From positions 1-35,050 of IMG/VR virus record IMGVR_UViG_3300032006_002535: DNA of 35,050 nucleotides; one strand, given 5' to 3'. This document shows positions 2,928 to 32,727 of this stretch, one piece after another. A program made the position numbers and the translations under genes. A model generated the notes under the pieces. It was not told the origin of the DNA. It made no database searches and saw only the letters and a list, made by a program, of their open reading frames with translations. Source of the stretch: a virus. How positions within the stretch are numbered: position 1 is the stretch's first letter; the number at the start of each line of letters is the position of its first letter.

Positions 2928-3599
2928 ATGAATAAGCGATGGATTATTGTCTTCGACTGGGAGACGGATGGAAAAGACCCCCGCACATGCAATCCGGTAG
3001 AGCTTGCGGCTGTTCCAGTGGACCCACGCACCCTTGAGATTAAGGAAGACAGGTCCTTCAAAACGGTCATCAAGCCAGATGGCTTCGGGACCGACGAGTA
3101 TTTTACAGATGAAAGGCAAAAAACCATTGAATGGCACGCAAAGCAGAGGGGCGTCGATAGCTCGGATATAATAAAGAGTTGGAAGAAGGGCAAGAGTGAA
3201 AAAATTGCATGGAAAAGCTTCTGCGACTACTGCAAAAAGTTCAACATTGAAAAAACTCCCGGCAGTTGGTACACAGAACCAATATCAGCTGGCTACAACA
3301 TTATTGGATTTGACCTCCCCATTTGTGAAAGAATGGCCGCTAAACATAAAACAAAAATGCCCTTCTCCAAGACGACCAAGATAGATATAATGGACCTTAT
3401 GTTCTATTGGTTTGAAAATCTTGAAGAACCACACAACTTTAGGCTCGACACTTTTAGAAAATTTTTCGGAATAGAGGCAGCCCAAGCTCACGAAGCCCTG
3501 TCGGATACCATTGACTCGGCAAAGCTCATGGTACAGTTTCTTCGGTTCCATCGTCGACAAGCAAGTGTTGAAAAGTTTAAGGGCGCGTTTTCTAAATGA
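2928..3599 (+). CDS. DEDDh 3'-5' exonuclease (DnaQ/epsilon-like proofreader)
   Basis: A 223-aa exonuclease of the DnaQ-like DEDDh class, which removes mispaired 3' nucleotides. Exo I is FDWETDG with D10 and E12. Exo II is in YNIIGFDLPI with D129. Exo III is AHEALSDT with H188 and D193. All five catalytic residues are present. The gene lies between the two halves of dnaE, and its stop codon overlaps the start of the C-terminal half (ATGA), so the three products are probably made together. This placement supports a role as the phage's epsilon-like proofreading subunit. Whether it binds the PHP domain, as E. coli epsilon does, is inference. Confidence 0.9.
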   Translation: MNKRWIIVFDWETDGKDPRTCNPVELAAVPVDPRTLEIKEDRSFKTVIKPDGFGTDEYFTDERQKTIEWHAKQRGVDSSDIIKSWKKGKSEKIAWKSFCDYCKKFNIEKTPGSWYTEPISAGYNIIGFDLPICERMAAKHKTKMPFSKTTKIDIMDLMFYWFENLEEPHNFRLDTFRKFFGIEAAQAHEALSDTIDSAKLMVQFLRFHRRQASVEKFKGAFSK

Positions 3600-5239
3600 A
3601 AAAGTTTATGTGTGGCTGCTCTTTTGAAACAGATGCAGCAGGAAGCGTTATATTTTCCCCCGACATTTCCCAGCTACCGCTTACATGCGAAGCGACTTGG
3701 GAGATGATTTGCGAAGGAAATACCAAAGGGGTTTTCCAGCTAGAGTCTCAGCTTGGAAGAAGTATGTCCAGCCAGACTCAGCCTAGAAATATAGAGGAGC
3801 TCTCAGATCTTGTCGCAATTATTCGCCCCGGCTGCATGGAGGCTATGGTCAATGGTAAGAGCCTGACCAATCACTACATAGACAGAAAACACAAACGAGA
3901 CCCCGTTGACTATCTACACCCCTCTCTTGAGCCGATTCTCTCCAATACACACGGTATTCTAGTGTATCAGGAGCAGGCTCTCCTTATTGCCAGAGACATC
4001 GCTGGATTCGACCTCCAAGAGGCAGACATATTAAGAAAGGCCATTGGAAAAAAGAACGTCTCCCTCATGGCAGACCTGAAGGAGAAATTTATATCCGGAG
4101 CCCAGAGAGTGGGCCTCGTAAGCAAAGAGCAGGCCGTCGAGATTTTTGGATGGATCGAGAAGTCTCAGAGGTATTCCTTCAATAAATCTCATTCTGTCAG
4201 CTATGCCTATAATGCCTATCTGACAGCCTATACCAAGGCGCACTTTCCCCACGAGTTCTTCACCTCATATCTCAAAAATTCGATTGGAAAGCCAGACGCC
4301 TATGCCGAAATAGAAGAGCTTGTAAATAATGCAAAAGTGATGGACATTGAAGTAATGCCACCAAATATCAAAAAGATGAACAAGTCCTTTTCCCTAATAG
4401 GAAAAAATCCCACCTTCGGGATTACTGAAATAAAAGGAGTAGGGGGCTCTGTTTATGACAAGATGATAGAATGCGTAAAAAAGAATAACATCCCCCTAGA
4501 TAGCTGCGACTGGGAAACTTTTCTAATAGGGTTTGGTAGATGCATAAAGATCGACTCTTTTGAGGCGCTGATTTTAAGCGGAGCTCTTGACTGCTTCAAC
4601 CTTTCTAGATCAAAGATGTGTCATGATCTTAAGATGTTTAGAGAGCTTAGCAAGAGAGAGATACCTTGGTTGGAAAATTACAAGAAAAATAATCCCGACC
4701 GTTCCCTCCTCGGCTGCATTAGAGATATGATTCGATACAATGAGTGGGATGACCCCAAAAGGCCCATATACAGAAAAGACAGGGTCGATGTTGTCGAAAG
4801 TATTGCGGATGCCATGCAAGATGCAGGGTATAATCTAGTAGACTCACCCAGTTGGCTTGCCCTTCAAGAAAGTAAATATCTCGGAACAGCATTAACCTGT
4901 GCGAAGGTTGATGAGTATGACGTAAGCGACGCTAACTGTACATGTAAGGAGTTCATTAACGGGTTTAACTCTAGGAACGGCATTCTTATAGCTGCACAAA
5001 TAGAAGCTATAAGAGAATGGAAAATTAAAAGAGGGTCAGCCAAGGGTCAGAAGATGGCATTTTTGACAATAAGTGACGCGAGCTGTAGTATGGATAACGC
5101 TACTATGTTTTCAGAAGAGTGGGATAAACACCGAAAGCTCGTGAAAGAGGGAGAGGTCTTGTTGTTAAAAGGAAGTCGAGATCTAAAAAGAGGAAGTTTT
5201 CTAATTAAGTCAGTTTCTACGATCAAAAACTTACTTTAG
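3596..5239 (+). CDS. dnaE: DNA polymerase III alpha subunit, C-terminal piece (fingers and OB-fold)
   Basis: A 547-aa continuation of the split DnaE. After an N-terminal stretch with a CGC motif it enters the conserved fingers at NTKGVFQLES, then shows LVAIIRPGCMEAM, GILVYQEQALLIARDIAG, ADILRKAIGKK and SFNKSHSVSYAYNAY, all DnaE hallmarks. A helix-hairpin-helix-like and beta-clamp-binding region would follow. The last 100 residues (from about GILIAAQIEAIREWK) look like the OB-fold. It has no palm catalytic Asp of its own, so it needs the protein encoded at 706-2574. The N-terminal piece lacks the linker normally found between the third Asp and the fingers, and part of that linker begins this protein. 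No intein motif is seen at the junction. Confidence 0.95.
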   Translation: MKKFMCGCSFETDAAGSVIFSPDISQLPLTCEATWEMICEGNTKGVFQLESQLGRSMSSQTQPRNIEELSDLVAIIRPGCMEAMVNGKSLTNHYIDRKHKRDPVDYLHPSLEPILSNTHGILVYQEQALLIARDIAGFDLQEADILRKAIGKKNVSLMADLKEKFISGAQRVGLVSKEQAVEIFGWIEKSQRYSFNKSHSVSYAYNAYLTAYTKAHFPHEFFTSYLKNSIGKPDAYAEIEELVNNAKVMDIEVMPPNIKKMNKSFSLIGKNPTFGITEIKGVGGSVYDKMIECVKKNNIPLDSCDWETFLIGFGRCIKIDSFEALILSGALDCFNLSRSKMCHDLKMFRELSKREIPWLENYKKNNPDRSLLGCIRDMIRYNEWDDPKRPIYRKDRVDVVESIADAMQDAGYNLVDSPSWLALQESKYLGTALTCAKVDEYDVSDANCTCKEFINGFNSRNGILIAAQIEAIREWKIKRGSAKGQKMAFLTISDASCSMDNATMFSEEWDKHRKLVKEGEVLLLKGSRDLKRGSFLIKSVSTIKNLL

Positions 5240-5249: not shown

Positions 5250-5272
5250 ACATTGAAGGGAAGGCTTCTTTG

Positions 5273-5731
5273 ATGAAGGATCTTGTAGAAGAAAATATGG
5301 GTCTTGTTATATCTATAGTCAATAGATTTAACCCCAAAAATACCACCGAGAGAGACGATTTTATACAGGCCGGGCGAATAGGGCTCTGGAAAGCTATTGA
5401 AAAATTCTGCGAGTCCCGTGGCACAAAATTCTCACCTTACGCATGGAACCCTATTAGGTGGGAGATTATGAAGGAGATAAGGTCTGCCATGAAACACAAG
5501 CATGTCTCTCTAAATCTTGATGATGAGGATAATCTGGGAGAATACCTTTCCCCCGAGTCCTTTTGGGAGCTTGTGCCCTCCAGTCTTACCGAGGATGAGA
5601 GGGCCGTAATTACTCTACGCCTCGAAGGGCATAATTTTAAAGATATATCCGAAAAGCTTGACCGAAATAGATCGTCAGTAAAGAAGGTCTTTAACAGCGC
5701 CATAAAAAAGATCCGAGACAATAATGAGTGA
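5273..5731 (+). CDS. Sigma-70-family RNA polymerase sigma factor
   Basis: A 152-aa sigma factor with a region 2-like core at about residues 3-70 (NMGLVISIVNRF, then DFIQAGRIGLWKAIEKF) and a region 4-like helix-turn-helix at about 100-150 (LTEDERAVITLRLEGHNF, then an HTH). It would direct host RNA polymerase to a set of phage promoters, as phage-encoded sigma factors commonly do for middle or late genes. The ATG at 5273 is preferred to a TTG one codon earlier, and AAGGGAAGG upstream supplies the ribosome binding site. It overlaps the start of the following glycosyltransferase by eight bases. Which promoters it serves cannot be told from this window. Confidence 0.85.
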   Translation: MKDLVEENMGLVISIVNRFNPKNTTERDDFIQAGRIGLWKAIEKFCESRGTKFSPYAWNPIRWEIMKEIRSAMKHKHVSLNLDDEDNLGEYLSPESFWELVPSSLTEDERAVITLRLEGHNFKDISEKLDRNRSSVKKVFNSAIKKIRDNNE

Positions 5732-7391
5732 TAAAAAAAGGGTCTTGCTAGTAAGCGAAGCCCACTACTTAGCGTCTGGATTTGGCACTTATTCAAAGCA
5801 AATCCTTCGCAGGCTGCAAGACACTGGCAAGTATGAGCTTGCGGAGTTCGCTTCCTACGGCAAGGCGTCTGCCGTAAATGATACAGACTGGCTATTTTAT
5901 GCCAACATGCTAGATAACGACTCTCCGTGCCCAGAGCTTGACGAATACAACCGCAACAACATCCACCAGTTCGGAGCTTGGAGGTTTGACAGAGTATGTT
6001 TGGACTTTAAGCCCGACATAGTCTTATGTTATCGAGACCCGTGGATGGACATGTGGATAAAAGACTCGCCTCTTCGCCCATATTTTCACTGGGTGTGGAT
6101 GCCGACCGTGGACTCGGCCCCGCAGCGCCAAGAGTGGATAAATGGCTTCTCTGAATGCGATGCGCTGTTTGCGTATTCCGAGTTTGGGGTTAAAGTTATG
6201 AAGGAGCAGGGCAAGAAGAGGGTGAATGTAATTGGATGTGCTTCACCCGGCATAGACCCATCGGTTTACGTGCCCGTTGCAGACAAAAGAGAGCATAGAA
6301 AAACACTAGGAATTGACCCAGACGCTTTTATAGTTGGAACGGTCATGCGAAACCAGAAAAGGAAGCTCTTTTTTGAGCTGATGAAAGCCTTTCGGATCTT
6401 TCTAGACACAGCACCTCCTGAAATAGCCAATAAAAGCTATCTGTATTTACATACCAGCTATCCGGAGCCACAAGGCTGGGACATCCCTGACGGCATCATG
6501 CAAAATGGTCTTGGGGGCAAGGTACTCATGACCTATCTTTGCAGAAACTGCAAAAAGCTTTCCTGCCAGACATTCAATGACGCCATGACTTGGTGCCCTC
6601 ATTGCAATAATCTTAGCGCGGTTTGTCCAACCGTCTCGTTCGGCGTCACAATAGAAGATCTAGTGGGAATTTACAACCTGTTCGATCTATATGCGCAATA
6701 TGCCATCTGCGAGGGTTTTGGGATGCCTCAAGTCGAAGCCGCTGCGTGTGGAATTCCGGTTGCTGCTACAAACTATAGCGCCATGGAGGATGTAATCCAT
6801 CATACCAAGGGCTTTCCGATTCCGGTTAAAACATTCTTTAGAGAGCTTGAGACCAATGCGGAAAGAGCCTACCCAAACAACGAAGTGATGGCAGACACTA
6901 TGCTAGCATTTTTCCAGTCCACTGAGACCGAGCGACTTAAAAAGTCAATGGAGGCGAGGGCTGGGGCAATTTCAAGGTATGACTGGGATGACACAGCCAA
7001 ACAGTGGGAAAACTACATAGACAACTACACTCCTGTTGAAAAACAGGGTGTTTGGGACTCCGCTCCTGTTTTCCCCTCCATTCCTGAAGCCAAACCGGAC
7101 AATTTTTCTAATCATAATGAATTCATAGAATGGATATTTTCCGACGTAATGAAGGAACCACAAAAGATTCATAAAGAAGAAGGCGTAAAGCTCGTTAGAG
7201 ATCTAAACTTTGGAGCTCAAATTAGCTTTGGGTCTCTTAATCCTATTGATCAACAAAAGATTTTTGACCTGTATAAAAACCGTGCCGTTAACAAGCTTCA
7301 GACCGAAAGAGTCAGATGTGGCCTCCTCCCAATAACAAATCCTCCCTTTATTGCCGAGGCCTACAACAGAAAGAGAAAAGAAAATGGTTAA
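5724..7391 (+). CDS. GT4-type glycosyltransferase with inserted zinc ribbon
   Basis: A 555-aa GT-B fold glycosyltransferase. The N-terminal Rossmann half opens with RVLLVSEAHYLASGFGTYS. The C-terminal donor-binding half has VGTVMRNQKRK and the acidic E(x7)E motif in CEGFGMPQVEAAACG near residues 328-342. A zinc-ribbon-like insert with C273, C276, C291 and C294 sits between beta strands of the C-terminal domain, which is unusual for the family. About 120 residues beyond the normal end form an extra C-terminal region. The enzyme would move a sugar from a nucleotide donor to an unknown acceptor. It heads the glycosylation cassette and overlaps the sigma gene and the channel gene at its two ends. 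Confidence 0.85.
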   Translation: MSDKKRVLLVSEAHYLASGFGTYSKQILRRLQDTGKYELAEFASYGKASAVNDTDWLFYANMLDNDSPCPELDEYNRNNIHQFGAWRFDRVCLDFKPDIVLCYRDPWMDMWIKDSPLRPYFHWVWMPTVDSAPQRQEWINGFSECDALFAYSEFGVKVMKEQGKKRVNVIGCASPGIDPSVYVPVADKREHRKTLGIDPDAFIVGTVMRNQKRKLFFELMKAFRIFLDTAPPEIANKSYLYLHTSYPEPQGWDIPDGIMQNGLGGKVLMTYLCRNCKKLSCQTFNDAMTWCPHCNNLSAVCPTVSFGVTIEDLVGIYNLFDLYAQYAICEGFGMPQVEAAACGIPVAATNYSAMEDVIHHTKGFPIPVKTFFRELETNAERAYPNNEVMADTMLAFFQSTETERLKKSMEARAGAISRYDWDDTAKQWENYIDNYTPVEKQGVWDSAPVFPSIPEAKPDNFSNHNEFIEWIFSDVMKEPQKIHKEEGVKLVRDLNFGAQISFGSLNPIDQQKIFDLYKNRAVNKLQTERVRCGLLPITNPPFIAEAYNRKRKENG

Positions 7392-7890
7392 GCACATGCT
7401 ATTCCTCAAGTGGTGGCTTTTTATGGCAGCAGTGACTGCCTTGGGGGCCTTTTTTGCCACACAGGGGGGATTGGGCGTTCTATGGGAGCAGGACCAGACG
7501 AAGCTGAGCTTTCTTCTTTTGCTTATATTCACCCATATGTCAGCTTGGTGTGGCTATAAAACATGGAGGCTTAGTAAATTTTTAGACCGTGATGAGACTG
7601 AAAAATATCTTGTTGAAAAAATTGAGGAATTAATGGAGGCGGGATGGTTTGCGAGCGACCTCTGTCTCAGTATTGGAATGGTGGGGACTGTTATTGGTTT
7701 CATAACAATGATGTCGGGGTTTGCAACCATAGATGTCTCGGACATGACAACCGTACAAGACATGATCAAGGGTCTAGGCTCCGGCATGTCAACCGCTCTT
7801 TACACAACACTAGTAGGTCTAATATGCAGCTCTCTTTTGAAAATACAATATTTTAATCTGAGTCAAGCTATCGATAAGGCAAGGAAATGA
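7384..7890 (+). CDS. ExbB/TolQ/MotA-family proton channel protein
   Basis: A 168-aa inner-membrane protein of the MotA/TolQ/ExbB channel family, which uses the ion gradient to drive a partner that acts in the periplasm. Four hydrophobic segments are visible at about 8-27, 40-58, 91-110 and 134-153. The family signature covers the last two: GMVGTVIGFITMM and then GSGMSTALYTTLVGLICSS. Charged helices between segments 2 and 3 fit the cytoplasmic region. It is shorter than typical ExbB (about 240 aa). The ATG at 7384 overlaps the stop of the glycosyltransferase and is preferred over an upstream extension that lies inside that gene. Its stop overlaps the start of the ExbD-like gene, so the pair is probably made in concert. 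Confidence 0.85.
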   Translation: MVKHMLFLKWWLFMAAVTALGAFFATQGGLGVLWEQDQTKLSFLLLLIFTHMSAWCGYKTWRLSKFLDRDETEKYLVEKIEELMEAGWFASDLCLSIGMVGTVIGFITMMSGFATIDVSDMTTVQDMIKGLGSGMSTALYTTLVGLICSSLLKIQYFNLSQAIDKARK

Positions 7891-8507
7891 AAAGAAATTA
7901 CCACACGAGCCTTTCGTTCTTGGACCTGCTATTCAATACGGTCCTGTGCTTTGCCGCTCTTTTTGCTTTGTCTTTCATTCTTATTAATCCAAGCAAGCAA
8001 GATAAAAACGTAGAAGTTAAAGCTGAATTTATCATTACTGTAACTTGGCCCAACGACTTGAACAACGATGTAGACACCTATGTTGAAGACCCACAGGGCA
8101 GGCTCGTGGCCTTTATGCGTCGCGAAGAGGGTCTAATGCATTTGGACAGAGACGATGTCGGCAAGTTTAATGACATACTTTCCACTCCGTTTGGAGATGT
8201 GGAATATAATGAAAACCGAGAAGTGGTCACTCTGCGGGGAACTATCGAAGGAGAATATGTAGTGAACGTCCACATGTATATGCAGAGAAGCGAGCAAAGC
8301 CCAACTCCGGTTAGGATTCAGCTAGATAAAATAAACCCCTTCCAAATCGTAACGGTAAAAGATGTTGTTCTTGACATTACAGGCAGCGAAAAAACAGCGT
8401 TCCGCTTCACCGTGGACAAAGAGGGCGAAGTGAGCGACATTAATGAGCTTCCTAAGACTCTAACTAGAGAAACCGTTCCCCCTCTATCAATCAACAGAGG
8501 TCGATGA
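7887..8507 (+). CDS. ExbD/TolR-like membrane protein with DUF2135-like outer domain
   Basis: A 206-aa protein with one N-terminal membrane helix at 12-33. D13, in SFLDLLFN at the helix entrance, is placed like the ion-carrying Asp of ExbD, TolR and MotB. After the helix comes a periplasmic-type beta-rich domain. From about 48 to 130 it has WPNDLNNDVDTYVEDPQG, an LDRDD loop and GEYVVNVHMY, which resemble the DUF2135 (YfaP-like) beta-sandwich rather than the usual ExbD or OmpA-like domain. It overlaps the ExbB-like gene by four bases, supporting an ExbB-ExbD type pair. The helix role and gene pairing are strong; the DUF2135 comparison is from memory of the motif. Confidence 0.7.
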   Translation: MKRNYHTSLSFLDLLFNTVLCFAALFALSFILINPSKQDKNVEVKAEFIITVTWPNDLNNDVDTYVEDPQGRLVAFMRREEGLMHLDRDDVGKFNDILSTPFGDVEYNENREVVTLRGTIEGEYVVNVHMYMQRSEQSPTPVRIQLDKINPFQIVTVKDVVLDITGSEKTAFRFTVDKEGEVSDINELPKTLTRETVPPLSINRGR

Positions 8508-8514
8508 GGTTGCC

Positions 8515-9117
8515 ATGACTATCCCCCTAGTGTTTTTCTCGCTGTTTATACTGATCCTTTGGTTCATAATAGGATCAAGGGGTCACTGGGCCCTGAAGGC
8601 TGTAGTCATAGCGATGACCTTGCATTTCTGTATATCAATTGGCCTTTCACTGGAAGGCTTCGCGGGATGGCCCTCTGCTGACGGCCTTCCCGACAAATTT
8701 ATAGTTCACTGGATAGTCGTAGAAGAGCCGGATAAAAAGACAAAGGCGCCGGGATCGATTTATATATGGGCCACAGACCTAAGCCGCGATCACGAGACCC
8801 CAGAGACTTCCGGATGGAAAAAGTTTTTTCTCAGCCTGTCTCCTTCCGGCGAAGGACAGCCCCGAGCCTATGTAGTGCCCTACTCGAAGGAGAAGCATGA
8901 AGATGCTGACGGCGTCTTGACTCAAATAAGAGGTGGAAAAATCGTCCTTGGGGAGAGGGGCGAAAATGGAGGCGAGCCGGGAGAAGGGGAGGGTGGGGAT
9001 GGTGACGGAAATGGAAGCCCCGAAGGATCGGAGGGAGGGGGCAGCTTCAGTCGCAGCGACGGCATAACTTTTCATGAGCTTCCCCCTACAAAACTTCCCA
9101 AGAAGATAAGGAAATAA
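8515..9117 (+). CDS. Third membrane protein of the channel cassette, unknown family
   Basis: A 200-aa protein with two hydrophobic segments at about 3-20 and 26-47, then a soluble domain (IVHWIVVEEPD, GSIYIWATDL, RAYVVPYSKEKHED). A very Gly/Glu/Asp-rich linker at about 147-180 (DNA near 8950-9055) leads to a basic C-terminal end. It follows the ExbD-like gene by seven bases with GAGG as ribosome binding site. Position and membrane topology suggest a third subunit or the load driven by the ExbB/ExbD-like pair. I do not recognise the soluble domain and give no function. Confidence 0.6.
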   Translation: MTIPLVFFSLFILILWFIIGSRGHWALKAVVIAMTLHFCISIGLSLEGFAGWPSADGLPDKFIVHWIVVEEPDKKTKAPGSIYIWATDLSRDHETPETSGWKKFFLSLSPSGEGQPRAYVVPYSKEKHEDADGVLTQIRGGKIVLGERGENGGEPGEGEGGDGDGNGSPEGSEGGGSFSRSDGITFHELPPTKLPKKIRK

Positions 9118-9123
9118 AGCAAA

Positions 9124-10242
9124 ATGAATATACTATTTGTAGGCCCTTATAAGCAGTATAACGAATGGGGCAGAAAGAGCCGAGCTCTTCTGGGTGCTTT
9201 GAAAAAAACCGGACACACGGTAACTTCTCGACCCATATATTTTTCTCCCGTGCGATGGGAGTATCACGAAGAAGCCGAATTTTCTACCTGTAAAAGTTAC
9301 GACTCGGTGATTCAATTCACACTCCCTACATTTGCAGTCTATAACGGGAAGTTTAAGAAGAATATAGGGGTTTTTAATACTGAAACCATAGATGATTCCA
9401 TCTTTTCCACGGCTCTCAGTCGCATGGAAATTCTTGACGAGGTGTGGGTGGAAAATAAAAAGGTTTACGAGCACTTACAGAATAGGCTTTCTACCACACA
9501 AATTTCTCTTATTGAGCCATACATGGACACGTCTCTTGAAAATGATGCGTCACATGGTAGATTTGATGAAGGGATACTTAGAAAGGGGGCATTTGAAGAT
9601 AAGTTTATGTTTTATGCGATTGGGTCTTTAGATGAAAGGGAAGGCTGTAAGGAGCTAGTCTGCGCATATCTTTCAGAATTTTCCTCCTCCGATAATTCTG
9701 TACTAGTGTACGTTCTTGAAAACAGCGCCGACCCTGCGACTGTAAATGAGTTCATCAACGGATGCTTTAAGGCAATAGGTGCCACGAAAAATACAGACCA
9801 AAGGCCTATGCTGCATATCATGAATCCAGACAGCCCTCTTCCCATTGAAGCGAGGCTGACCGTTCACAAGGAGGGGGACTGCTTTATCTCTCCCGACTAT
9901 TCACTGAACTGTAGCAGCCTCATACTAGAAGCTGTTGCTGCCGAAAGCACCCCTATTGTGACTAAGGGAACCGCTGCCTACGAGCTTCTAGGTGAAAGTG
10001 GATCATGGGGGGTGGAGTCCTATGAGGAAAAGTGCATTTTAAACCACAGAGCTTTTGATGACATGTTTACATGCGATGAAACCTCGATGAGGCCCACGAT
10101 AAGATCTCTGTCCCGTCATATGAGAGAGGCTTATACTGATAAATTCTTGCGTGAAAAGAAGAAGGCTCATAACAAAAAAACAAGAGAGCTTTTTGAAAGC
10201 GATGACTATTACGATACCCTGAAAGACTTACTATGTTCCTAA
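9124..10242 (+). CDS. GT-B-fold glycosyltransferase
   Basis: A 372-aa protein with a glycosyltransferase-like start (NILFVGPYKQYNEWGRKS, then LLGALKKTGHTV) and a C-terminal half resembling the donor site of group 1 transferases (CFISPDYSLNCSSLILEAV and TPIVTKGTAAYELLG). The first strand, the glycine turn and the acidic Glu in the second motif are recognisable, but identity to well-known families appears low. It follows the three channel genes and overlaps the next glycosyltransferase by ten bases, so both probably serve the same glycan. Donor and acceptor are unknown. Confidence 0.7.
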   Translation: MNILFVGPYKQYNEWGRKSRALLGALKKTGHTVTSRPIYFSPVRWEYHEEAEFSTCKSYDSVIQFTLPTFAVYNGKFKKNIGVFNTETIDDSIFSTALSRMEILDEVWVENKKVYEHLQNRLSTTQISLIEPYMDTSLENDASHGRFDEGILRKGAFEDKFMFYAIGSLDEREGCKELVCAYLSEFSSSDNSVLVYVLENSADPATVNEFINGCFKAIGATKNTDQRPMLHIMNPDSPLPIEARLTVHKEGDCFISPDYSLNCSSLILEAVAAESTPIVTKGTAAYELLGESGSWGVESYEEKCILNHRAFDDMFTCDETSMRPTIRSLSRHMREAYTDKFLREKKKAHNKKTRELFESDDYYDTLKDLLCS

Positions 10243-11243
10243 TAGAAAATGTAATCCGTTCTGCGTCGCGTAGGTCCGATGAGGGGCCTCTTAATGTCTT
10301 GATAGTAGCAGAAAACAATGAAAAATACATAAAACTTGTTTGTCAGACAGAAAACAACTTTTACCTATGGTCTTCTTCTGGAAATGCTTGGAAAAAGGAG
10401 ATAGAAACAAGGCCCGAAAATCTACAGGTAATTAATCAAGAGTGGCCCACTTCCTATTTCGACATGATCGTGTGCAACAATCGGTTGGAACAGTATGATT
10501 TAGCTTCGTCGCTAGCCAACAAGTTTCATCTACCCATACTCTTAATAGACCACTGCTCCAGCTCGGCTGTAAAACCCACGAGCGCTCTTGAAAGTATCGC
10601 TCTTTCCAACCCACAGGCTCTTTACAAAAATCCTAGCGTAGTTGTCCCCATCAGCGAGCCTGTCAGTCTCTCATGGCCAAGCGGAAATCTTCGCCTAGTA
10701 ATTCCAGCTGGAATTGACACTGAAAAATTTCACATCCCAGAAAAACGACCACTGCATGCCTCCTTCGGAATAGAGATGACAGAGCACCGAATAATATTCG
10801 ACAATAATACCTCTCCTCAAGTTGGCGAGGCTATATTTAGAGCTTTTGGGAAAAAAATGTATACGGTAATTCCTACCGACTCTGACATAAAAGATAAAGA
10901 AGATATTTATCAACAAGGAGACTACTTTATTAACCCCCAAAATCACGTGACAGTGAAAATGCTTGAATCAATGTCGTGTGGAAATATTCCGATCTGTTTT
11001 GCCAAGACGGATCTTATCGAATTCATAGAAAACGGGGTTGACGGTTTTCTTGTAGATAAAATTGAAGATATCCCAGTCCTTCTCCGCAATCTCGACAGAC
11101 TGTCGCCAAAAGAAAGGTCCAGTATTGGCGAAAGAGCTAGGGAAAAGGTGATAAACACACAGCTTGCCCCTAAAGATTTTGCCTCTAAGTGGAAAAGTGT
11201 TTTTAATTATATGAAAAGTCAATATTACACGGCGCAAGTATAA
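10233..11243 (+). CDS. GT4-like glycosyltransferase
   Basis: A 336-aa protein of the GT-B glycosyltransferase fold. The N-terminal half is divergent. The C-terminal half has PAGIDTEKFHIPEKRP, a donor-site-like stretch MLESMSCGNIPICF, and the usual end AREKVINTQLAPKDFASKW. The first E of the normal E(x7)E motif is hard to place, so catalytic competence is less certain than for the enzyme at 5724-7391. It starts inside the end of the previous glycosyltransferase, supporting joint translation and a shared pathway. Confidence 0.72.
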   Translation: MFLIENVIRSASRRSDEGPLNVLIVAENNEKYIKLVCQTENNFYLWSSSGNAWKKEIETRPENLQVINQEWPTSYFDMIVCNNRLEQYDLASSLANKFHLPILLIDHCSSSAVKPTSALESIALSNPQALYKNPSVVVPISEPVSLSWPSGNLRLVIPAGIDTEKFHIPEKRPLHASFGIEMTEHRIIFDNNTSPQVGEAIFRAFGKKMYTVIPTDSDIKDKEDIYQQGDYFINPQNHVTVKMLESMSCGNIPICFAKTDLIEFIENGVDGFLVDKIEDIPVLLRNLDRLSPKERSSIGERAREKVINTQLAPKDFASKWKSVFNYMKSQYYTAQV

Positions 11244-11262
11244 ACCACAAGGATACGGTACT

Positions 11263-11664
11263 ATGAAAGTTAATCTGATCGTCGATAGCTCCCAGTCAAA
11301 AGAGGGCTACGAAAACATCACTCTGAATCCAGAAGGCATAAACGGCATTCCAGACAGCGCTTGTAAAGAACTCATGGTAGATAACGTCTTCGAGTTTCTC
11401 CCCGAACAAATGACCGCGACCGTTCTAAAAAAGCTGCGGAAGGGAGGGACTTTAGAGATACGTTCCCCGGATGCGCAAGAGATTTTTAGACAATTCGCAA
11501 TAGGTTCTGTAGACTTTGAAAATACCTCCTCTCTCTTAACAGGGGGAAGGGCAAGGATGAGCACTCTAGGGCAGACGCGATCTATATTGGAGTCTAACGG
11601 TCTTCAAATAGAGTTTGCGGCCCTGAATGGCGTCTATTACAGAATAACGGCCAGAAGATCATGA
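11263..11664 (+). CDS. Reduced methyltransferase-like protein
   Basis: A 133-aa protein resembling the C-terminal half of class I SAM-dependent methyltransferases of the kind found in sugar and O-antigen clusters. The recognisable part is VFEFLPEQMTATVLKKLRKG, followed by GGTLEIRSPD, equivalent to the strand 4-helix-strand 5 region. A glycine-rich SAM-binding loop is not visible at the N terminus, and the protein is well under the usual 200 aa or more, so it may be inactive or a binding subunit. It lies between a glycosyltransferase and a small membrane protein and overlaps the latter by four bases. Confidence 0.5.
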   Translation: MKVNLIVDSSQSKEGYENITLNPEGINGIPDSACKELMVDNVFEFLPEQMTATVLKKLRKGGTLEIRSPDAQEIFRQFAIGSVDFENTSSLLTGGRARMSTLGQTRSILESNGLQIEFAALNGVYYRITARRS

Positions 11665-11801
11665 TTAGGTTTAGCGGAATAGCGACAATTATGGCCCTTG
11701 TTTCCTCAGCGATTGGTGGGTTTCGCCCCTCTCACCTAACAGAGTTTCTACTATGGGTAGCATGCATTATGTTCGTATACGAGAGAGACCATGCAAGATA
11801 A
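11661..11801 (+). CDS. Small two-helix membrane peptide, 46 aa
   Basis: A 46-aa reading frame starting on the stop codon of the methyltransferase-like gene (ATGA) and ending 11 bases inside the next gene. It has two hydrophobic stretches, about 5-20 and 27-40, joined by a short polar turn, and a charged C-terminal end. Stop-start coupling on both sides supports a real gene. Such peptides occur at three points in this window (also 19356 and 21852). Function unknown. Confidence 0.55.
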   Translation: MIRFSGIATIMALVSSAIGGFRPSHLTEFLLWVACIMFVYERDHAR

Positions 11802-12696
11802 AAAAGACGAACCGAAGGGTCTGGCAATACAGGCGTCGGTTTCCACGACCTCGTGCCGCCAGTGCATCTTTGCGCAATACAATGACGATAATGAGCAGGT
11901 AAATTGTGCAGCGGGAAGGTTTGAGGTGTTTGAAGAAAATGGCGTAGACCTTATGTTTGTCGGGGATGAGGAGAAAAAGTTCTTTTTAGTGAAAGATAAG
12001 GCCTGCGCTTATTTTCGCCACCAAGAGCAGTTTGCAGAAATAGCCAAGGAGAAGAGTGTCGAAGAGATTTTAGATGACGTAAAAGCTTCATTAAAAATCC
12101 CCTATCACGCCATAGTCTTCTTGCGTCCAGCTCGCCCTTCAGCAAGTAGGCATCACCATCAGGCCATAACAACCGAGAAGCAGAGTCAAGAGCTCCTAGA
12201 GCAACTGAAAGAGAGGCTCGATGAACTGGACCGGCAGGACGTTAAGCCCGCCATTGTTACGGTGATAGACCGCACTCATTCGAAGATTGATCTCACCCCA
12301 AAAGTTGTAGGACTTTTTCATAACGAATACTCCTTTGCTAACTGGAGAACTCAAAGAGTGCAGTCTGTAGACCATTCCGACATGGGCATTATAGATGTAT
12401 GCTATGATAATGTTAAGTCGAAAAAGTATTTTTTTTACACAACCTTTGAAGTTACTAAACCAATCCCTCTTTCTTTTTCGGAAGAGATCCACCATTCTAT
12501 TCAAGAAAAAATGCAAAGCTTCGTGATATTGGAAGCGGACGAGGGTCACGGTAAAACAGTCCTAAAGCTTGCTCATGCAAAATATGGTGGCAACAGTTTT
12601 GATATAGATCTAAAAGACAAGCTAGTTCATTATAATGACGGGACCAATTTGATAAGAAAGGTGGAAGAGCTATGTCCGAGCCTAAAAGTGTCTTAG
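11791..12696 (+). CDS. Cysteine-motif protein of the glycosylation cassette
   Basis: A 301-aa protein. The N-terminal 80 residues carry spaced cysteines: CRQCIFAQ, then NCAAGRFEVF, then KACAYFR, a likely small metal-binding module. I recall similar modules at the front of phage glycosyltransferase-like proteins, but that is memory, not proof. The middle contains a long charged helix (about 130-155) and alternating strands and helices (VKPAIVTVIDRTH, VILEADEGHGKTVLKLAH), possibly a divergent GT-A fold. No DxD motif is certain. It overlaps the next gene by 25 bases, and the two may act as a pair. Function unresolved. Confidence 0.55.
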   Translation: MQDKKDEPKGLAIQASVSTTSCRQCIFAQYNDDNEQVNCAAGRFEVFEENGVDLMFVGDEEKKFFLVKDKACAYFRHQEQFAEIAKEKSVEEILDDVKASLKIPYHAIVFLRPARPSASRHHHQAITTEKQSQELLEQLKERLDELDRQDVKPAIVTVIDRTHSKIDLTPKVVGLFHNEYSFANWRTQRVQSVDHSDMGIIDVCYDNVKSKKYFFYTTFEVTKPIPLSFSEEIHHSIQEKMQSFVILEADEGHGKTVLKLAHAKYGGNSFDIDLKDKLVHYNDGTNLIRKVEELCPSLKVS

Positions 12697-13172
12697 TTGC
12701 GGTTGGGGCAGGCCCCAAGCCACGAATTCCCAAACAAAACTACGAAAACATAGTTACAAAATACAACATGGTCCCTCCGGTGCCCGATCCCGACTTTTTT
12801 AATCTCACTATAAATAAAATAGACCCCTCTGCCCCCCCTCACATATGTGGATTTATGAGAGGGAACCACTTCTATTCCTTCCCCGGAGCTATTCAGGAGA
12901 TAGTTGATGTATTCAACAGTGACGAGGGAATTGAGATAGTCACCGCAGATACTGTTGTAAAAAAGGTGCAAAACGGAGCGGAATATGTATCTTACGGACA
13001 CTCAGAAGTGATCATCGACACCCCCTTCTTTGTCAGAGGGGCCATTGCTAAAAGTATCGAGTTTAAAGAACACGCCGAAATCTTTAAAGAGGTTCTTCAG
13101 TCTCTGGTGAGTAACGGGAGGAAAATATACCACATAGGGGAGTCTCTGCTAACAGTAGAAGTTCATGAATGA
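12672..13172 (+). CDS. Hypothetical protein, possible GT-A fragment
   Basis: A 166-aa protein with no membrane segment or cysteine cluster. The stretch ICGFMRGNHFYSFPGAIQEI, followed by EIVTADTVV, EYVSYGHSEVIIDTPFFVRG and a final KIYHIGESLLTVEV, is weakly reminiscent of the second half of GT-A glycosyltransferases, where a test for acceptor-loop residues precedes a final helix. It is only an impression. The gene overlaps both neighbours (25 bases upstream, four downstream), so it is part of the same transcript as the nucleotidyltransferase that follows. Confidence 0.5.
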   Translation: MSEPKSVLVAVGAGPKPRIPKQNYENIVTKYNMVPPVPDPDFFNLTINKIDPSAPPHICGFMRGNHFYSFPGAIQEIVDVFNSDEGIEIVTADTVVKKVQNGAEYVSYGHSEVIIDTPFFVRGAIAKSIEFKEHAEIFKEVLQSLVSNGRKIYHIGESLLTVEVHE

Positions 13173-13861
13173 GCAAAAAGACGCCCCCTCAAATCACCGT
13201 TATCATTCCAGCTGCCGGTATAGGCAGAAGAATGAAGTCTTATGGACCCAAGCCTCTGATAATGATCGGGGAGTCTACCGTGATAAATATTCAGATTGAC
13301 ACCATAAGATCCCAAATAGACGTTCACGATATCGTCCTTATCTGCGGTTTTAGAGCAGAAAAGCTCATGAATGAGACCCCAAATAGTATAGTAAAGATAG
13401 AAAATGAATCTTACGAGTCTAGCAATGTCGTCAGGAGCATTGGAATGGGCCTACGGGCCATCAGAGATGCAGAGACTGTTGTTGTAGTGTATGGAGATCT
13501 TGTCTTTAACTCCGCAGCTATTGAAAACCTAAACTTAAATAAGTCTTGTATAATAATAGACGATATAAATATGGGTGTCGACGAAGTTGGCTGCATCATA
13601 GATAAAGACGGAAATCTGGCAAACATGATGTACGACCTGCCTGCTAAGTGGGGACAAATTGCTGTCTTTAGAAGTCGAGAGCTTGACCTGCTCAAAGAGC
13701 TGTGCTGGGATAAGAGAAACTATAGAAAGTTTGGTTTTGAAATAATTAACCGTATAATAGAAAGAGGGGGCTCCTTCGGATGCATTCGCAATGAAGATAT
13801 AAAGATTGTGGATATAGATACCTCTAAGGATATTCAAACAGCAATAGGAATACTGACGTGA
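13169..13861 (+). CDS. Sugar-phosphate nucleotidyltransferase-like protein
   Basis: A 230-aa protein of the nucleotidyltransferase family that activates sugar phosphates with NTP. It opens with the nucleotide-binding signature VIIPAAGIGRRM followed by GPKPLIMIGESTVI (the GxGxRL...PKxL pattern), then IVLICGFRAEKL, and VVVVYGDLVFN with the metal-binding Asp. A C-terminal KIVDIDTSKDIQTAIGIL resembles the end of CTP- or UTP-dependent enzymes. Length fits the short members (about 230-250 aa). It would supply nucleotide-sugar to the surrounding glycosyltransferases. The nucleotide and sugar are not decided by sequence. Its stop overlaps the GTG start of the next gene. Confidence 0.8.
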   Translation: MSKKTPPQITVIIPAAGIGRRMKSYGPKPLIMIGESTVINIQIDTIRSQIDVHDIVLICGFRAEKLMNETPNSIVKIENESYESSNVVRSIGMGLRAIRDAETVVVVYGDLVFNSAAIENLNLNKSCIIIDDINMGVDEVGCIIDKDGNLANMMYDLPAKWGQIAVFRSRELDLLKELCWDKRNYRKFGFEIINRIIERGGSFGCIRNEDIKIVDIDTSKDIQTAIGILT

Positions 13862-14736
13862 AAGTTTTAGTTCCAAATTTACATTTTTACCATTTTCGAA
13901 ACATAGCGGGGTGTCTTCAGACAGTTGGGCCCGAAGCCAATGTGCAAACATTTTTGTGGAATTCTGATGAGAAGCCCATAATAGACGTGTTTGACGAAAT
14001 CCGCCCCGACTTGGTATTTTTGCACGAAAGTCAGCTCGACGGAGCCTTTAATATTCTGTGCAGGGAATTCAATTTCGACTACGTCCTAGTGGGGTCTCGC
14101 GATTACCCACAAATACCAAAAAAACCCGCTGCCGTAATAACCTCAGAAAATTTTATGGACAACTTTACGGACCAAGAGAATGTCATGACACTGCTCCCGG
14201 CCGCAAAGGTAACGGAAATACACGCCGCCCAAAAACTAGAGGAGCTGGAATCTGAGGTGCTCATTATAACCGGCGTAGTGCCGAATACCGAGGCTGTTCT
14301 TGACAGCGTAAGATCTTTATGCCATACGTACCGCACTAAAATCATAGGAGAGGCTCCAGTTCCAATACCAAATTATTTGGGCAAAGTGAATATGTTTGAG
14401 AGGGCCAACTTTATCAAGTCAACAAAGGTTCTCGTTGACTTCGGCTCCTACGACTATTTAGATGCGGCCTACCTAAAAACCCCGGCTATCCTTGGGAGAC
14501 CCCCTCTTCGCGGTCTTGGATCGGTGAAAACATTTTCAGATATTCCTACTCTTATGGCCCTAGTGAAAAACCTTCTGGTCGACGAGAAAGGCAAAAAGGA
14601 ATATTCGAGAAAGATTTCTACACACGTTAGAGAAAACCACACATATTATCATCGCTGCTCTCAAATATTCAAGACTATAGGAAAAGATGATGTTTCAAAT
14701 GCGCTTTTGAGCTTTTTGAAGGAGCTGTTAAAATGA
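13858..14736 (+). CDS. CgeB-like GT-B glycosyltransferase
   Basis: A 292-aa protein resembling short glycosyltransferases of the CgeB type. It has an initial strand (KVLVPNLHFYHFRNIAGCLQ), a middle linker with IRPDLVFLHESQLDG, and a C-terminal half with VLVDFGSYDYLDAAYLKTP, which fits the donor-site region. The start is GTG at 13858, overlapping the preceding stop as GTGA; no better ATG is available. It overlaps the next gene by four bases. Activity is probable from context, but the acidic active-site residue is not clearly visible. Confidence 0.6.
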   Translation: MKVLVPNLHFYHFRNIAGCLQTVGPEANVQTFLWNSDEKPIIDVFDEIRPDLVFLHESQLDGAFNILCREFNFDYVLVGSRDYPQIPKKPAAVITSENFMDNFTDQENVMTLLPAAKVTEIHAAQKLEELESEVLIITGVVPNTEAVLDSVRSLCHTYRTKIIGEAPVPIPNYLGKVNMFERANFIKSTKVLVDFGSYDYLDAAYLKTPAILGRPPLRGLGSVKTFSDIPTLMALVKNLLVDEKGKKEYSRKISTHVRENHTYYHRCSQIFKTIGKDDVSNALLSFLKELLK

Positions 14737-28239: not shown

Positions 28240-31200
28240 CTACGTACTCGTTCCCATAAAACATCCAGACAGGAAGTTCATGTGCTTGTATTCCACCTCA
28301 AGAATATCTCCCACACACACTACGTCGTCCACATAACGAACACCCTGCGTCATCCCGCCTTTGCATCCGCCGTCACCGCCTCCTCCTCCCCCGCCCCCCA
28401 AGGGCCAGTGCTGACAGCTGTACGTGTCATAATGGGTTACGAGAATGTCGTCCTTCTCAATATCGCTACCCAGAAAATTGTCCAAATTGATCAGGGGTGG
28501 TATTCCGGTTTGAAGCCCCGTACCAATAGGCTGCCCCGACGCACCGGACGACAGCCCGGTAGGCTGGACAGTGACGATATCAGCAAAGCCAACGCCGTCT
28601 TTATCGTACATGTCACCGCCGCTCAGGACCTCCACTAGCCCCGTTGATCCTGCCGGGATAGACTCTATAGCCTTGACCTTCATTAGTCTATAAGGGGGTG
28701 GTGCTGTCCAAACACCTCTGGCGCGATCATAGCGAAGATCCACTGGCGCTACAGGCCAATTGGTAGCATCCGACAGCCAGTTAGGCGCAAATCTGTCGGT
28801 AAGCCCTGACTGGCCCTTTTGGTGCACGTTGCCGGTGTCCGCAACTTTGCTGGTGTCCCAAAGCCCGTATGCGCCCGTCTGGAAGGTAGCATCCCCCGAG
28901 TAGCCTCGTGAATTCGGCACTGGCTTTCCATAGGTGTCATACCCCCACGATTGAAGTACAAGTGGGCCGCGTAACGCCATAAACCTGTAGTCGCCTCTTC
29001 CCGAGTCGGAAACGGGCAGCGTCCCAGTGCCCCCTATCCCGGCGGCGTACCTGTCATTCATTCCCCCGATTATCATAGACTGTCCGGTAAACGTAGAGTT
29101 ACCTATCTCCTCTAGACCACGGGCGTCCCCTCTAGCAACCGATTCTATATCATGACCGCTAGCATAGGGATAAAGAGGAGATCCCGAAGTTCCAGAGCTG
29201 TGTAGCGAGCCAGTGGATCGGACTCCCGACAAAAAAGTGGCATTGGAAACTGGATCTGCAAGCGGATCAAGATAATTTGCTGCAATAATTATCCCCGTCA
29301 TCCCTCCTAGAGGAGGGGGAGGGGAGAGAACGCCGCCCACATTTTCATATTTTACATTGCCAGTATCGAATCCAGAATATGCTCCCGTTGCCTGTGGGAT
29401 GCCCGTGCCAGTACGCCAGCTTCCGCGACCACTCCAGTCAATGCCAAGCAATCCCGATATACCAGCGCCCGGACAGAGACCACTCTGATGTGACTTCATC
29501 GCAGGCAAGCCACCGTTGGTCCATGGAATCGCGGCTCCAGTCTTAGCAACGGGCCTAATAAGGCCGTCCATACTCATCATTGCCGTGTTTTCGTAGTCAT
29601 CATAAAAGGCAAAAGTATTCTTGTCCGCGACGAGCACTTCTTTTCTTTTCTCGTCTTGGCCAAATAATCTTCCGGCTAATATAACCCCTGCGCTGCTTGG
29701 AGAATACGCTGGCCCAGCCATCATCCTGCTTAGAAGAGTGTGACCTCGTCCAGACGCGTTCATCTGCCTGATAGCGTCCTTAGCTGTCTTGCCTCTGCGA
29801 GCCCTGTCAGCAGCAAGCTTGTTCCGTCCTATCGCCTTTATTCTGTCCGCGTTGCCCTTTGAAAATCTTCCAAAAACTGGTGTAAACGTACTTATAGTAT
29901 AAGACGTAGTGACCCCTTGGGGGCTTACCACCACGTTCATGTTAGATATGCTCGCTCCTGCTGCGCTGGCAACCAGAGTGACATATTGATAATTAAGACC
30001 GAAGAATACGGCGGTTACTAGGTTTCTTGCTGGAGCAAGGGTCAGGCTTGAGGTAATTGCGGCTCCAAGCCCTTTTGTGGGGTATCCCCCCACAGTGACC
30101 TCTCCTCTTTCCGCAACATTCATAGCTGTAGTAGCGTTTTCGACTTTCGACAAAGCTCCTACATTCATAAAATCAGTTCCGCCGTACTCCCATGGGCTGA
30201 GAGTGGTGTCCTGCTCTGCGTGAACAGTCCCGTAGGTCATTGAGGCGTTATGTGGAACTGCTTCTTTCCACCACGGCCCGTATGTTTGTGTATTGCTGAC
30301 AACAGGAACTGCGGCTGCCAGCGGGGGAAGCATTCTGCTTGCGTATGATCCCCCCAGCCCCACCATCGGCTGCTTCAGGGTCGAAAACACGACGGGCTTG
30401 TCTCTCATCCCAGACTGAACCATGAAGGTCTCTTGGGTTCTTTTCCCATCATTGGCGGGGAAGCCAGTATACACGGGATCGCAGGTGAGCAGAGCAAATA
30501 CTCGGTCTTGATCACTGTCTAAATAGGGACATCCTGTCACCCACTTTTCTGATATATCAGCCTTTTGCCAAACATAGAGGTCGGCTCCTGAGCCCTGTGC
30601 TGTGTCGTAGGTATTTGTAAGAAGGTTAGAAACTGGAACTTGATCATAGTCCAGTCCCGTTACACAGGGTTGGCGAGTACAGGGGTCGGCATGGGGGGCA
30701 TTTTGTGTCCACCTTAGTATGGGATTCAGCCGACCGTCACTGGTCTTAAAGCGATCCATAGCAACGCCCTGCCCCACCCCGAAGTGTTCAAGATCTAGAA
30801 CGTTATTAGCCTCTGTCCATGCTCCCTCGGTGGAGGGCTCGTCGGACCATCTAATCAGATCTGGGTTGCCAGTGTCCCCGGCGTAACAGGCGAACGGTAT
30901 TTCTACGAGCCACTTTCTTCCATAGTGTTCCTGCGCATACTGCTGTAGCCATTGGTGAACTTTCTGAGCGTCCTTAAGATAGGGGTCGGTCGGGCCCACT
31001 GGCCCCCTTGTCATATTCATCGTATTTATAGACGAAAGGAACGATGCATTCGGAGCAACGACGGGATTGCCAGATCCGCCGGAAGGCGTGACCGCCAGCT
31101 GGACCTGTCCTTGAAACGCTAAGTTTATGTCTTCTGCCCAAAGCTTGAGTACGGTCTTATCTCCGGCAGGAGACACGCAGCCGGTAGGATAAGTATTTCC

Positions 31201-32727
31201 TAATAGCAAAAAGTTGACGAAGCTATTAAGGCTGCCCATCGCTGCTCGTAATTCCCCTTCCCATACCCAACCCCTGCCGTCCGGAAGCAGCTTATGATAG
31301 GCTGTATAGGGCGTTCCATCAGGCCTCAGTTCCGTCGTCATTTTATGGTTAAGCTGACCGTTGATATCTCGAAAGTCCAGCCGAATGTTCCAGTCGGGAG
31401 GTCCAACCCAGTGATTCGCATTAGTCGTATCTCTTGTCTCACAGCTGCTTTGGTAAGAAAGGTTGAGCTTTCCGTCCAAGTCGCGGCCCCAATACGGTTG
31501 AATAGTCGCATCCCCACCAAGGATCGTGCCGCTATGTCGATAAACCGAGCGTTTCTTATCCCCAATAATAAAAGCGTTATTGGGGTTGGGGCGATATTCC
31601 CTACCAATAGTAGAACTGGTGGCTCCTCCTTGGCTGGCGGCGGTATTAATAAAGGCCGTAATCTCACCCATGGCTGGCTGGTTGGTCCGCAAAATAACTC
31701 TTACTTTTATCACCAGAGCCCTCGCCGTTGGCAATAGCTCTATGTAATAGTCACACCCCGCGTCCCGACACACCTGCGCAATCATTTCCGACGTACTGAT
31801 AACTGGTCCGCTAACCCGATAGAACGCAGGAGCGTCGGGAATTTCACTTAAATCGATTATATATGCAGCAGGTGTATTTAGATTGCCAATCCCACCCCCC
31901 GTGTATAGCTCGCCAAACCCCCCACGGTTTCCGGCGGTCCGAGGCGAGCCGGGAGGTCCGAGAATGTAGCCTTTGGAGAACTTGGGCGCGTTGGCTTGGG
32001 CCGAATTGCCGAGCAGGCACTGGACGGCCCTCTTTAGGTAGTTCCAAGGAACACCGGCAGCAATATCGGAAGAAGTGCCCCAGCCTCCCGCCGGAGATCC
32101 AAAGCTAGCTTTATTTTCTGGGTCGTCGGAAGGGTGCCCTACTTCTACAAAAGGACAGTTTTGATTAAGAGCATCTAAAAACCCGTAGGCGTTAACAATA
32201 TTTCCAAGCTGATGGGTAAGGGAAACCGGAGGCCTGTCCGGCGACGAGGGAACTCCTTGAATACCCCCTTGATATTCACCGACTATTACCTGAACATTGT
32301 CCAAAAGAATGCGCGGGTCGGTAAGCTTTACCGTGTAAACGGGGTTGCCGTCTGGGCCATTCTTCTTATTCCACGACTGCATAATTCCTGAATATTCAAA
32401 ATTAGCAACCCTGAAATAGCAGGGAGCGCCCGGAGCGGGTTCTGTAAAGCCGGGATCAGGTCCCGCATAGTAATACTTGGAAAAGTCACCCCGAGCCTCT
32501 GTTTTAAAATAGACCTTCCCGTATGGCACCGGATTTTGAGGGTCGAAGCCGGGAGGGGGTTCTTGGGCACACAAGTCCTGCACAAGCTCTATAGTAAGAT
32601 CAGAGCTTTGCTCGTTTACACCCGCATTGGCAGTGAAGCTAATGACGGTCAGCCCCAAAAACATTGTCTGCTCGAAGGGTCCGTAAATATTCTCAGGGGT
32701 GCAGATATGAGTAGCGGTATGGGCCAT
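28240..32727 (-). CDS. Giant virion structural protein, probable tail/baseplate component
   Basis: A 1495-aa protein, the largest in the window. The N-terminal part (PYGKVYFKTEARGDFSKYY, then YSGIMQSWNKKNGPDGN and VKLTDPRILLDNVQVIVGEY) resembles phage hub-type proteins that read 'sW...DPR.iL...', a weak likeness. Long middle stretches are rich in Gly, Thr, Ser, Pro and aromatic residues as in fibre or baseplate proteins. Near the C terminus is a glycine run (DNA about 28370-28400) followed by KGGMTQGVRYVDDVVC. It lies directly downstream of the 495-aa protein and tape-measure gene, supporting a tail-tip or baseplate role. Confidence 0.65.
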   Translation of the reverse strand: MAHTATHICTPENIYGPFEQTMFLGLTVISFTANAGVNEQSSDLTIELVQDLCAQEPPPGFDPQNPVPYGKVYFKTEARGDFSKYYYAGPDPGFTEPAPGAPCYFRVANFEYSGIMQSWNKKNGPDGNPVYTVKLTDPRILLDNVQVIVGEYQGGIQGVPSSPDRPPVSLTHQLGNIVNAYGFLDALNQNCPFVEVGHPSDDPENKASFGSPAGGWGTSSDIAAGVPWNYLKRAVQCLLGNSAQANAPKFSKGYILGPPGSPRTAGNRGGFGELYTGGGIGNLNTPAAYIIDLSEIPDAPAFYRVSGPVISTSEMIAQVCRDAGCDYYIELLPTARALVIKVRVILRTNQPAMGEITAFINTAASQGGATSSTIGREYRPNPNNAFIIGDKKRSVYRHSGTILGGDATIQPYWGRDLDGKLNLSYQSSCETRDTTNANHWVGPPDWNIRLDFRDINGQLNHKMTTELRPDGTPYTAYHKLLPDGRGWVWEGELRAAMGSLNSFVNFLLLGNTYPTGCVSPAGDKTVLKLWAEDINLAFQGQVQLAVTPSGGSGNPVVAPNASFLSSINTMNMTRGPVGPTDPYLKDAQKVHQWLQQYAQEHYGRKWLVEIPFACYAGDTGNPDLIRWSDEPSTEGAWTEANNVLDLEHFGVGQGVAMDRFKTSDGRLNPILRWTQNAPHADPCTRQPCVTGLDYDQVPVSNLLTNTYDTAQGSGADLYVWQKADISEKWVTGCPYLDSDQDRVFALLTCDPVYTGFPANDGKRTQETFMVQSGMRDKPVVFSTLKQPMVGLGGSYASRMLPPLAAAVPVVSNTQTYGPWWKEAVPHNASMTYGTVHAEQDTTLSPWEYGGTDFMNVGALSKVENATTAMNVAERGEVTVGGYPTKGLGAAITSSLTLAPARNLVTAVFFGLNYQYVTLVASAAGASISNMNVVVSPQGVTTSYTISTFTPVFGRFSKGNADRIKAIGRNKLAADRARRGKTAKDAIRQMNASGRGHTLLSRMMAGPAYSPSSAGVILAGRLFGQDEKRKEVLVADKNTFAFYDDYENTAMMSMDGLIRPVAKTGAAIPWTNGGLPAMKSHQSGLCPGAGISGLLGIDWSGRGSWRTGTGIPQATGAYSGFDTGNVKYENVGGVLSPPPPLGGMTGIIIAANYLDPLADPVSNATFLSGVRSTGSLHSSGTSGSPLYPYASGHDIESVARGDARGLEEIGNSTFTGQSMIIGGMNDRYAAGIGGTGTLPVSDSGRGDYRFMALRGPLVLQSWGYDTYGKPVPNSRGYSGDATFQTGAYGLWDTSKVADTGNVHQKGQSGLTDRFAPNWLSDATNWPVAPVDLRYDRARGVWTAPPPYRLMKVKAIESIPAGSTGLVEVLSGGDMYDKDGVGFADIVTVQPTGLSSGASGQPIGTGLQTGIPPLINLDNFLGSDIEKDDILVTHYDTYSCQHWPLGGGGGGGGDGGCKGGMTQGVRYVDDVVCVGDILEVEYKHMNFLSGCFMGTST
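28370..28400 (-). repeat. Polyglycine low-complexity stretch
   Basis: A GGN-rich run on the minus strand codes for eight consecutive Gly and then DGG near the C terminus of the 1495-aa protein. It probably forms a flexible hinge before a small Cys-containing end domain (C in DGGCKGG, DDVVCVGD and SGCFMG). Confidence 0.7.

Follow-up and report, generated by a model that had tools for sequence, protein, structure and literature searches.

Ion-driven inner-membrane motors of the ExbB-ExbD, TolQ-TolR and MotA-MotB class supply the power for flagella and gliding, for nutrient import and upkeep of the outer membrane, and for defence against phages. In the known 5:2 motors, an Asp in a membrane helix is the ion-binding residue, and in the AglRQS gliding motor one channel protein serves two single-helix Asp proteins (PMC9389320). 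Here we focus on three co-directional, tightly packed genes, A, B and C, at positions 7384-9117 of a 35,050-nucleotide stretch of viral DNA (IMG/VR record IMGVR_UViG_3300032006_002535), referred to as a whole as the window. An original prediction had placed an ExbB/ExbD-like motor cassette at this locus, and all three open reading frames (ORFs) were found where it had put them. We propose, at a probability of roughly 0.7, that the trio encodes an ion-driven inner-membrane motor of the ExbBD/TolQR/MotAB class, which carries a new output domain and a third subunit and acts on the cell envelope.

The trio shares with ExbB-ExbD and TolQ-TolR a channel protein with the MotA/TolQ/ExbB core, an adjacent single-helix partner with an Asp, overlapping genes and a condensed cytoplasmic part. 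In contrast to these systems, the outer domain of B resembles a DUF2135 beta-sandwich and has no ExbD or TolR match, the two-helix protein C stands in the place of TonB or TolA, and A is shorter. The core helices of A and the helix Asp of B are also found in the MotA-MotB and PomA-PomB stators, whereas the trio has neither their large cytoplasmic torque domain nor the peptidoglycan-binding OmpA-like domain. With Zorya, the trio has in common that ZorA is the best-scoring named subfamily for A of the window. However, A lacks the long ZorA tail (168 residues versus 420-699 positions in the ZorA models), B lacks the OmpA-like domain of ZorB, and a PADLOC scan of the ORFs on both sides (5270-14736, in a record that is a 35-kb fragment) gave no match to ZorC, ZorD or ZorE. 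Membership of Zorya was rejected because neither the ZorA tail nor any of these three proteins was found. AglRQS is likewise a three-gene MotA/TolQR-like set, but the third protein of our trio is a two-helix protein of another type than B.

Judged by its sequence, A is a member of the MotA/TolQ/ExbB family. Residues 96-164 match the Pfam model MotA_ExbB (PF01618) at E 4.9e-9 and 36.4 bits (curated cut-off 22.9), which bears out the earlier reading of this gene as an ExbB/TolQ/MotA-type channel protein. The same model matches A of rhizobiophage N3_19 (E 3.3e-6; other rhizobiophages are weaker) and bacterial homologues (7.8e-10 and 1.2e-7), and each of 12 viral records holds exactly one MotA_ExbB gene, 11 of them above the cut-off. 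Matches of the window protein to named subfamilies are weak, with ZorA (E 4e-7 in PADLOC, 9e-7 in NCBIfam) followed by MotP, PomA and TolQ. A profile of 20 A proteins retrieved MotA, TolQ, ZorA and ExbB chains from the PDB (E 6e-4 to 0.14), and the sole match outside the family was one photosystem chain (E 0.08). In the alignment with TolQ, the GMVGT motif of A falls on GLFGT of the channel core, and Thr142 falls on the Thr of ALIAT in the last transmembrane helix. A has the core-helix threonines of the MotA/TolQ/ExbB family, T102 and T142 both lying on TolQ threonines. Among 20 relatives, D37, G98, G101 and G145 are invariant and T102 and T142 nearly so.

The two-segment channel signature that had been predicted holds for the core helices, but A appears to have about four helices in total and not only two. 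This count comes from the alignment and from inspection by eye; by hydropathy alone, the window copy has two clear helices and its relatives have three to four. A stops right after its last helix, and its short loop and tail agree with the condensed cytoplasmic domains described for 'generic ion transporters' (PMC12505986). The annotated A of Rhizobium phage RHph_N3_19 (EVB99_065; 5562-5993 of locus L023) has 113 residues in an open frame of 143. Its start may have been annotated too late, and the longer frame would restore part of the missing N-terminal region.

B has a single hydrophobic helix (residues 15-33, Kyte-Doolittle hydropathy 2.44; residues 7-33 in the AlphaFold2 model), and Asp13 lies just inside it. 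The coupled single-helix partner with Asp13 was part of the original prediction, and this residue proved invariant in all 98 relatives from phages and bacteria. B hence has the one transmembrane helix with a conserved Asp that characterises the partner subunit of a 5:2 motor. Trp54, Asp61, Asp63, Asp89, Asp90, Glu112 and Asn127 are invariant in the same 98 proteins. In the model (predicted local distance difference test, pLDDT, 90.6), the N-terminal helix is followed by a beta-sandwich.

Profiles compared with DUF2135/YfaP proteins in either direction support a DUF2135-like nature of this outer domain, in the wider sense of the term. Alignment with seven DUF2135 sequences by hhalign gave a probability of 96.8 (E 2.5e-10), compared with 3.7 or less in 20 column-shuffled controls, and a DUF2135 hidden Markov model run over 7,857 ORFs found 188 matches, 187 of which are B proteins. 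The Pfam DUF2135 model itself (PF09906, 48 positions) found nothing in the window B at E up to 1. Neither the window B nor bacterial B matches ExbD or TolR at E up to 1, so that the suggestion of a DUF2135-like domain rather than a usual ExbD domain stands. The DUF2135 relatives retrieved are YfaP and VIT-domain proteins, and in the short stretches read no Asp-helix motor partner was seen. The predicted fold of the outer domain is closest to TerD of the tellurium-resistance family (3ibz: Z 11.7, root-mean-square deviation 4.5 Å over 142 aligned residues; 2qng: Z 10.3; 2qz7: Z 9.9), and the next group of structures starts from 6.1. Sequence kinship to TerD, in contrast, is not convincing (hhalign probability 0.7; no Pfam TerD match). 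We infer that DUF2135 and TerD domains share one fold. B has no curated Pfam or NCBIfam family, and its match to phrog_1735 (4e-5), a family without assigned function, is not informative.

C has helices at residues 2-20 and 25-46, and the loop that joins them is positively charged; because of this charge both ends of the protein are predicted to be periplasmic. Its soluble part is modelled by AlphaFold2 as a small domain of five strands and one helix with a Gly-rich loop (pLDDT 81), in line with the earlier description of a two-helix protein with a soluble domain, and a C-terminal strand with the pattern LPP..LP.K is conserved. C matches no family in Pfam, NCBIfam or PHROGs, and Foldseek returned nothing significant. 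The best VIA-align matches of the soluble part are oligonucleotide/oligosaccharide-binding (OB)-like (eIF5A, SSB, PriB, SilF), all with Z <6, and the fold was left unassigned. A C-type ORF is present in 79 of 85 non-redundant viral or phage-like loci (BLAST clustering) and in 65 of 67 bacterial loci. This constancy, together with its position, suggests that C is probably a transducer or an anchor.

Gene A starts with an ATG at 7384 inside the 3' end of the upstream gene (stop at 7391), A and B overlap by ATGA at 7887-7890, and C starts 7 nucleotides past B. Among relatives, 69-89% of synonymous sites differ versus 11-34% of nonsynonymous sites. Since synonymous change is far above nonsynonymous change, the trio consists of real reading frames under purifying selection and not of chance ORFs.

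Among about 160 loci from viruses, phages and bacteria, practically all keep the order A-B-C, whereas the flanking genes vary, and the three genes form a conserved unit. In phage 16-3, where the trio corresponds to p038, p040 and p042, and in X2_25, additional genes separate A, B and C, which nevertheless remain linked. The trio is conserved in related phages, as the original prediction requires, and B was found by pattern and tblastn searches in at least 194 IMG/VR contigs. It also occurs in 27 annotated phage records, all from Rhizobium or Sinorhizobium phages including 16-3 and P10VF, where it is named 'hypothetical protein' or carries only a number. In the phage collection, tblastn with A or C as query gave no matches, and B is the usable query.

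The cassette is indeed encoded by phages, as proposed, but it is not specific to them: many Alpha- and Gammaproteobacteria have this operon on the chromosome. In the class of Tistrella (Alphaproteobacteria), 43 of 289 genomes have the trio at E 1e-6, a few of them weakly, and in the class of an uncultured gammaproteobacterium (Gammaproteobacteria) 31 of 274 genomes have it at E 1e-10, or roughly every eighth of the sampled proteobacterial genomes. In the loci read, the setting is chromosomal and non-prophage, with housekeeping neighbours that include SfsA, an M24 peptidase of the methionine-aminopeptidase type and enoyl-CoA hydratase by Pfam, and RelA/SpoT, RecO and ParC by eye. An origin of the bacterial copies as prophage remnants is unsupported in these loci, given such neighbours. 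Azospirillum megaplasmids carry two B copies each, and Mesorhizobium kowhaii (L155, L156) also has two.

In a tree of 104 B proteins, all 25 bacterial sequences fall on one branch (99/93). The window lies in a phage-only set, and the rhizobiophages occur in two places, one of them beside the bacterial branch. From these placements, the trio has two or more distinguishable lineages in phages; the root is arbitrary and the tree hence gives no direction of transfer. Contigs of metagenome-assembled genomes labelled Parcubacteria, Verrucomicrobiota, Rokubacteria and others (L108-L120) carry trio copies that group with phage versions, and for this reason they may be phage DNA binned with bacteria.

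On the proposed reading, A would form a ring-shaped channel that encloses two B helices, a 5:2 assembly adopted here from the known members of the family. Protonation of Asp13 would cause B to move relative to A; proton use and rotation are likewise assumed by analogy with the family. B would then pass the movement to its periplasmic DUF2135/TerD-fold domain, which would act in place of an ExbD, TolR or OmpA-like domain. C, anchored by two helices, would be an obligatory partner at the outer face and might receive or anchor the movement of B. The phage most likely expresses its own copy of the trio and would thereby power work on the infected cell's envelope.

Beyond A, B and C, no gene family occurs in more than 16 of the 85 viral or phage-like loci. 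The recurring neighbours are GDP-mannose dehydratase (16/85) and a ClpP-type protease (14/85), and flanks at other loci also include topoisomerase, PolI and a late sigma factor. Sigma-factor-like genes lie within a few kilobases of the trio in 9 of 23 loci and directly after it in P10VF. Secreted trypsin-like peptidases (Trypsin_2) are found near the trio in about 10 of the 85 loci (for example L003 9810-10772, L025 4247-5146, L027 4577-5224 and L068 2354-3232), which is too few to claim a link without a background rate. No TolA, TolB, Pal or TonB was named among the Pfam-scanned neighbours, and host genomes were not searched for these proteins.

The motor reading builds on what the analysis establishes, namely the family membership of A, the invariant Asp, the kinship and predicted fold of the outer domain, and the linkage and spread of the trio. 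Several points weigh against it: the family match of A covers its last two helices only, no mechanical role is known for the output domain of B, C belongs to no recognisable family and shows weak OB-like matches, the structure predictions are of single chains (B and C), and nothing in the neighbourhood names the task of the trio. Among the alternatives, the trio might be a spare copy of a host envelope-maintenance motor, whose phage version keeps the envelope working during host shutdown. The chromosomal copies in both bacterial classes fit this idea, as does the location of the trio in several phages near replication, repair and late-sigma-factor genes and not near structural or lysis genes. 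However, phage and bacterial B are mostly separate on the tree, which argues that most of these phages did not recently borrow the trio, and we regard this explanation as possible but rather doubtful. Exclusion of other phages is a common use of phage-borne membrane proteins, and the trio could work as a small motor of the Zorya kind, which would sense damage that a second phage does to the envelope and stop the DNA of that phage. The preference of A for ZorA among the named subfamilies is in favour, but the missing ZorA tail and OmpA-like ZorB domain, the lack of a ZorC, ZorD or ZorE match in the neighbouring ORFs scanned and the lack of any other constant gene beside the bacterial copies make such a function unlikely.

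The original prediction also named glycan export and lysis as possible tasks and described the trio as packed between glycosyltransferase genes. Pfam supports this description for the upstream gene and for the second gene downstream, but the gene that adjoins C has no match. Glycosyltransferase-like flanks occur in the window and its nearest kin (L001, L004), and GDP-mannose dehydratase follows the trio in about 15 of the 85 loci, which would fit export of glycans or masking of receptors. Beside the trio in most phage loci, however, and in the bacterial loci read, no genes of sugar metabolism or transfer are present. As such genes are not constant neighbours, a specific link to glycan export is unsupported, and we consider it improbable. 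A lysis or membrane-depolarisation device, in which A and B leak protons late in infection, is conceivable in that a proton channel without its plug could dissipate the gradient. The gene families seen to recur near the trio in the 85 loci include none for lysis, and bacteria keep the trio on their chromosomes, which argues against a self-toxic leak; this is the least probable of the explanations considered. Two observations favour energised upkeep or remodelling of the envelope over lysis: in several phages the trio has replication and sigma-factor genes close by, and there are chromosomal versions of it.

The window covers part of the genome of a marine tailed phage. Its phage genes include a sigma factor, PhoH and DNA polymerase III alpha, the latter split into two ORFs with an exonuclease-like ORF in between (706-2574, 2928-3599 and 3596-5239). 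A 1,495-residue ORF without PHROG match (28240-32727, minus strand) adjoins a tape-measure-like gene, and the ORF at 19594-20859 matches a phage 'partition protein' PHROG. Features of the trio and its flanks are collected in Table 1.

Table 1. Positions of the trio genes, their conserved elements and the flanking genes in the window.
Feature	Position	Strand	Description and basis
Gene A	7384..7890	+	168 aa (amino acids), MotA/TolQ/ExbB-family channel subunit by sequence; about 4 transmembrane helices, with a short loop in the cytoplasm and without a long tail
GMVGT motif of A (residues 98-102)	7675..7689	+	Alignment with TolQ PDB chain; conservation
Thr142 codon of A	7807..7809	+	TolQ alignment; nearly invariant
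Gene B	7887..8507	+	206 aa, ExbD/TolR/MotB-like partner; predicted cytoplasmic N-terminus, one transmembrane helix, periplasmic DUF2135-like beta-sandwich
Asp13 codon of B	7923..7925	+	Predicted ion-binding residue; invariant in 98/98 relatives
Outer domain of B (about residues 45-190)	8019..8456	+	DUF2135-like by sequence; TerD-like by predicted fold
Gene C	8515..9117	+	200 aa, putative third subunit; two transmembrane helices and soluble domain
Sigma-factor-like gene	5270..5731	+	About 2.6 kb before B; Pfam PF04542, phrog_351
Upstream flank, GT4-type glycosyltransferase	5724..7391	+	Outside the conserved unit; Pfam PF00534, E 9.5e-11; not recurring at other trio loci
Downstream flank, 372 aa	9124..10242	+	Glycosyltransferase-like by eye only; no Pfam or PHROG match; related ORFs in 6/85 loci
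Further flank, glycosyltransferase with Pfam support	10233..11243		

In the open-access papers searched, which include few subscription journals or preprints, we found no paper on the phage-borne trio or on the bacterial operon. The class of machine is known, while its output domain, third subunit and phage distribution appear to be new; within the literature searched, a DUF2135-like output domain has not been described in such a motor. It is an evenly balanced proposition that the trio represents an undescribed class of three-subunit ion-driven motors with a DUF2135/TerD-fold output and a two-helix transducer, widespread in Pseudomonadota, and that many phages encode a version of their own with which to manipulate the envelope of the host. 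Such motors perform several kinds of work, and a further class, present in about one eighth of the sampled proteobacterial genomes and in at least 194 viral contigs, would extend that range by another. Infection would include energised control of the envelope, provided that phages do supply a motor of their own.

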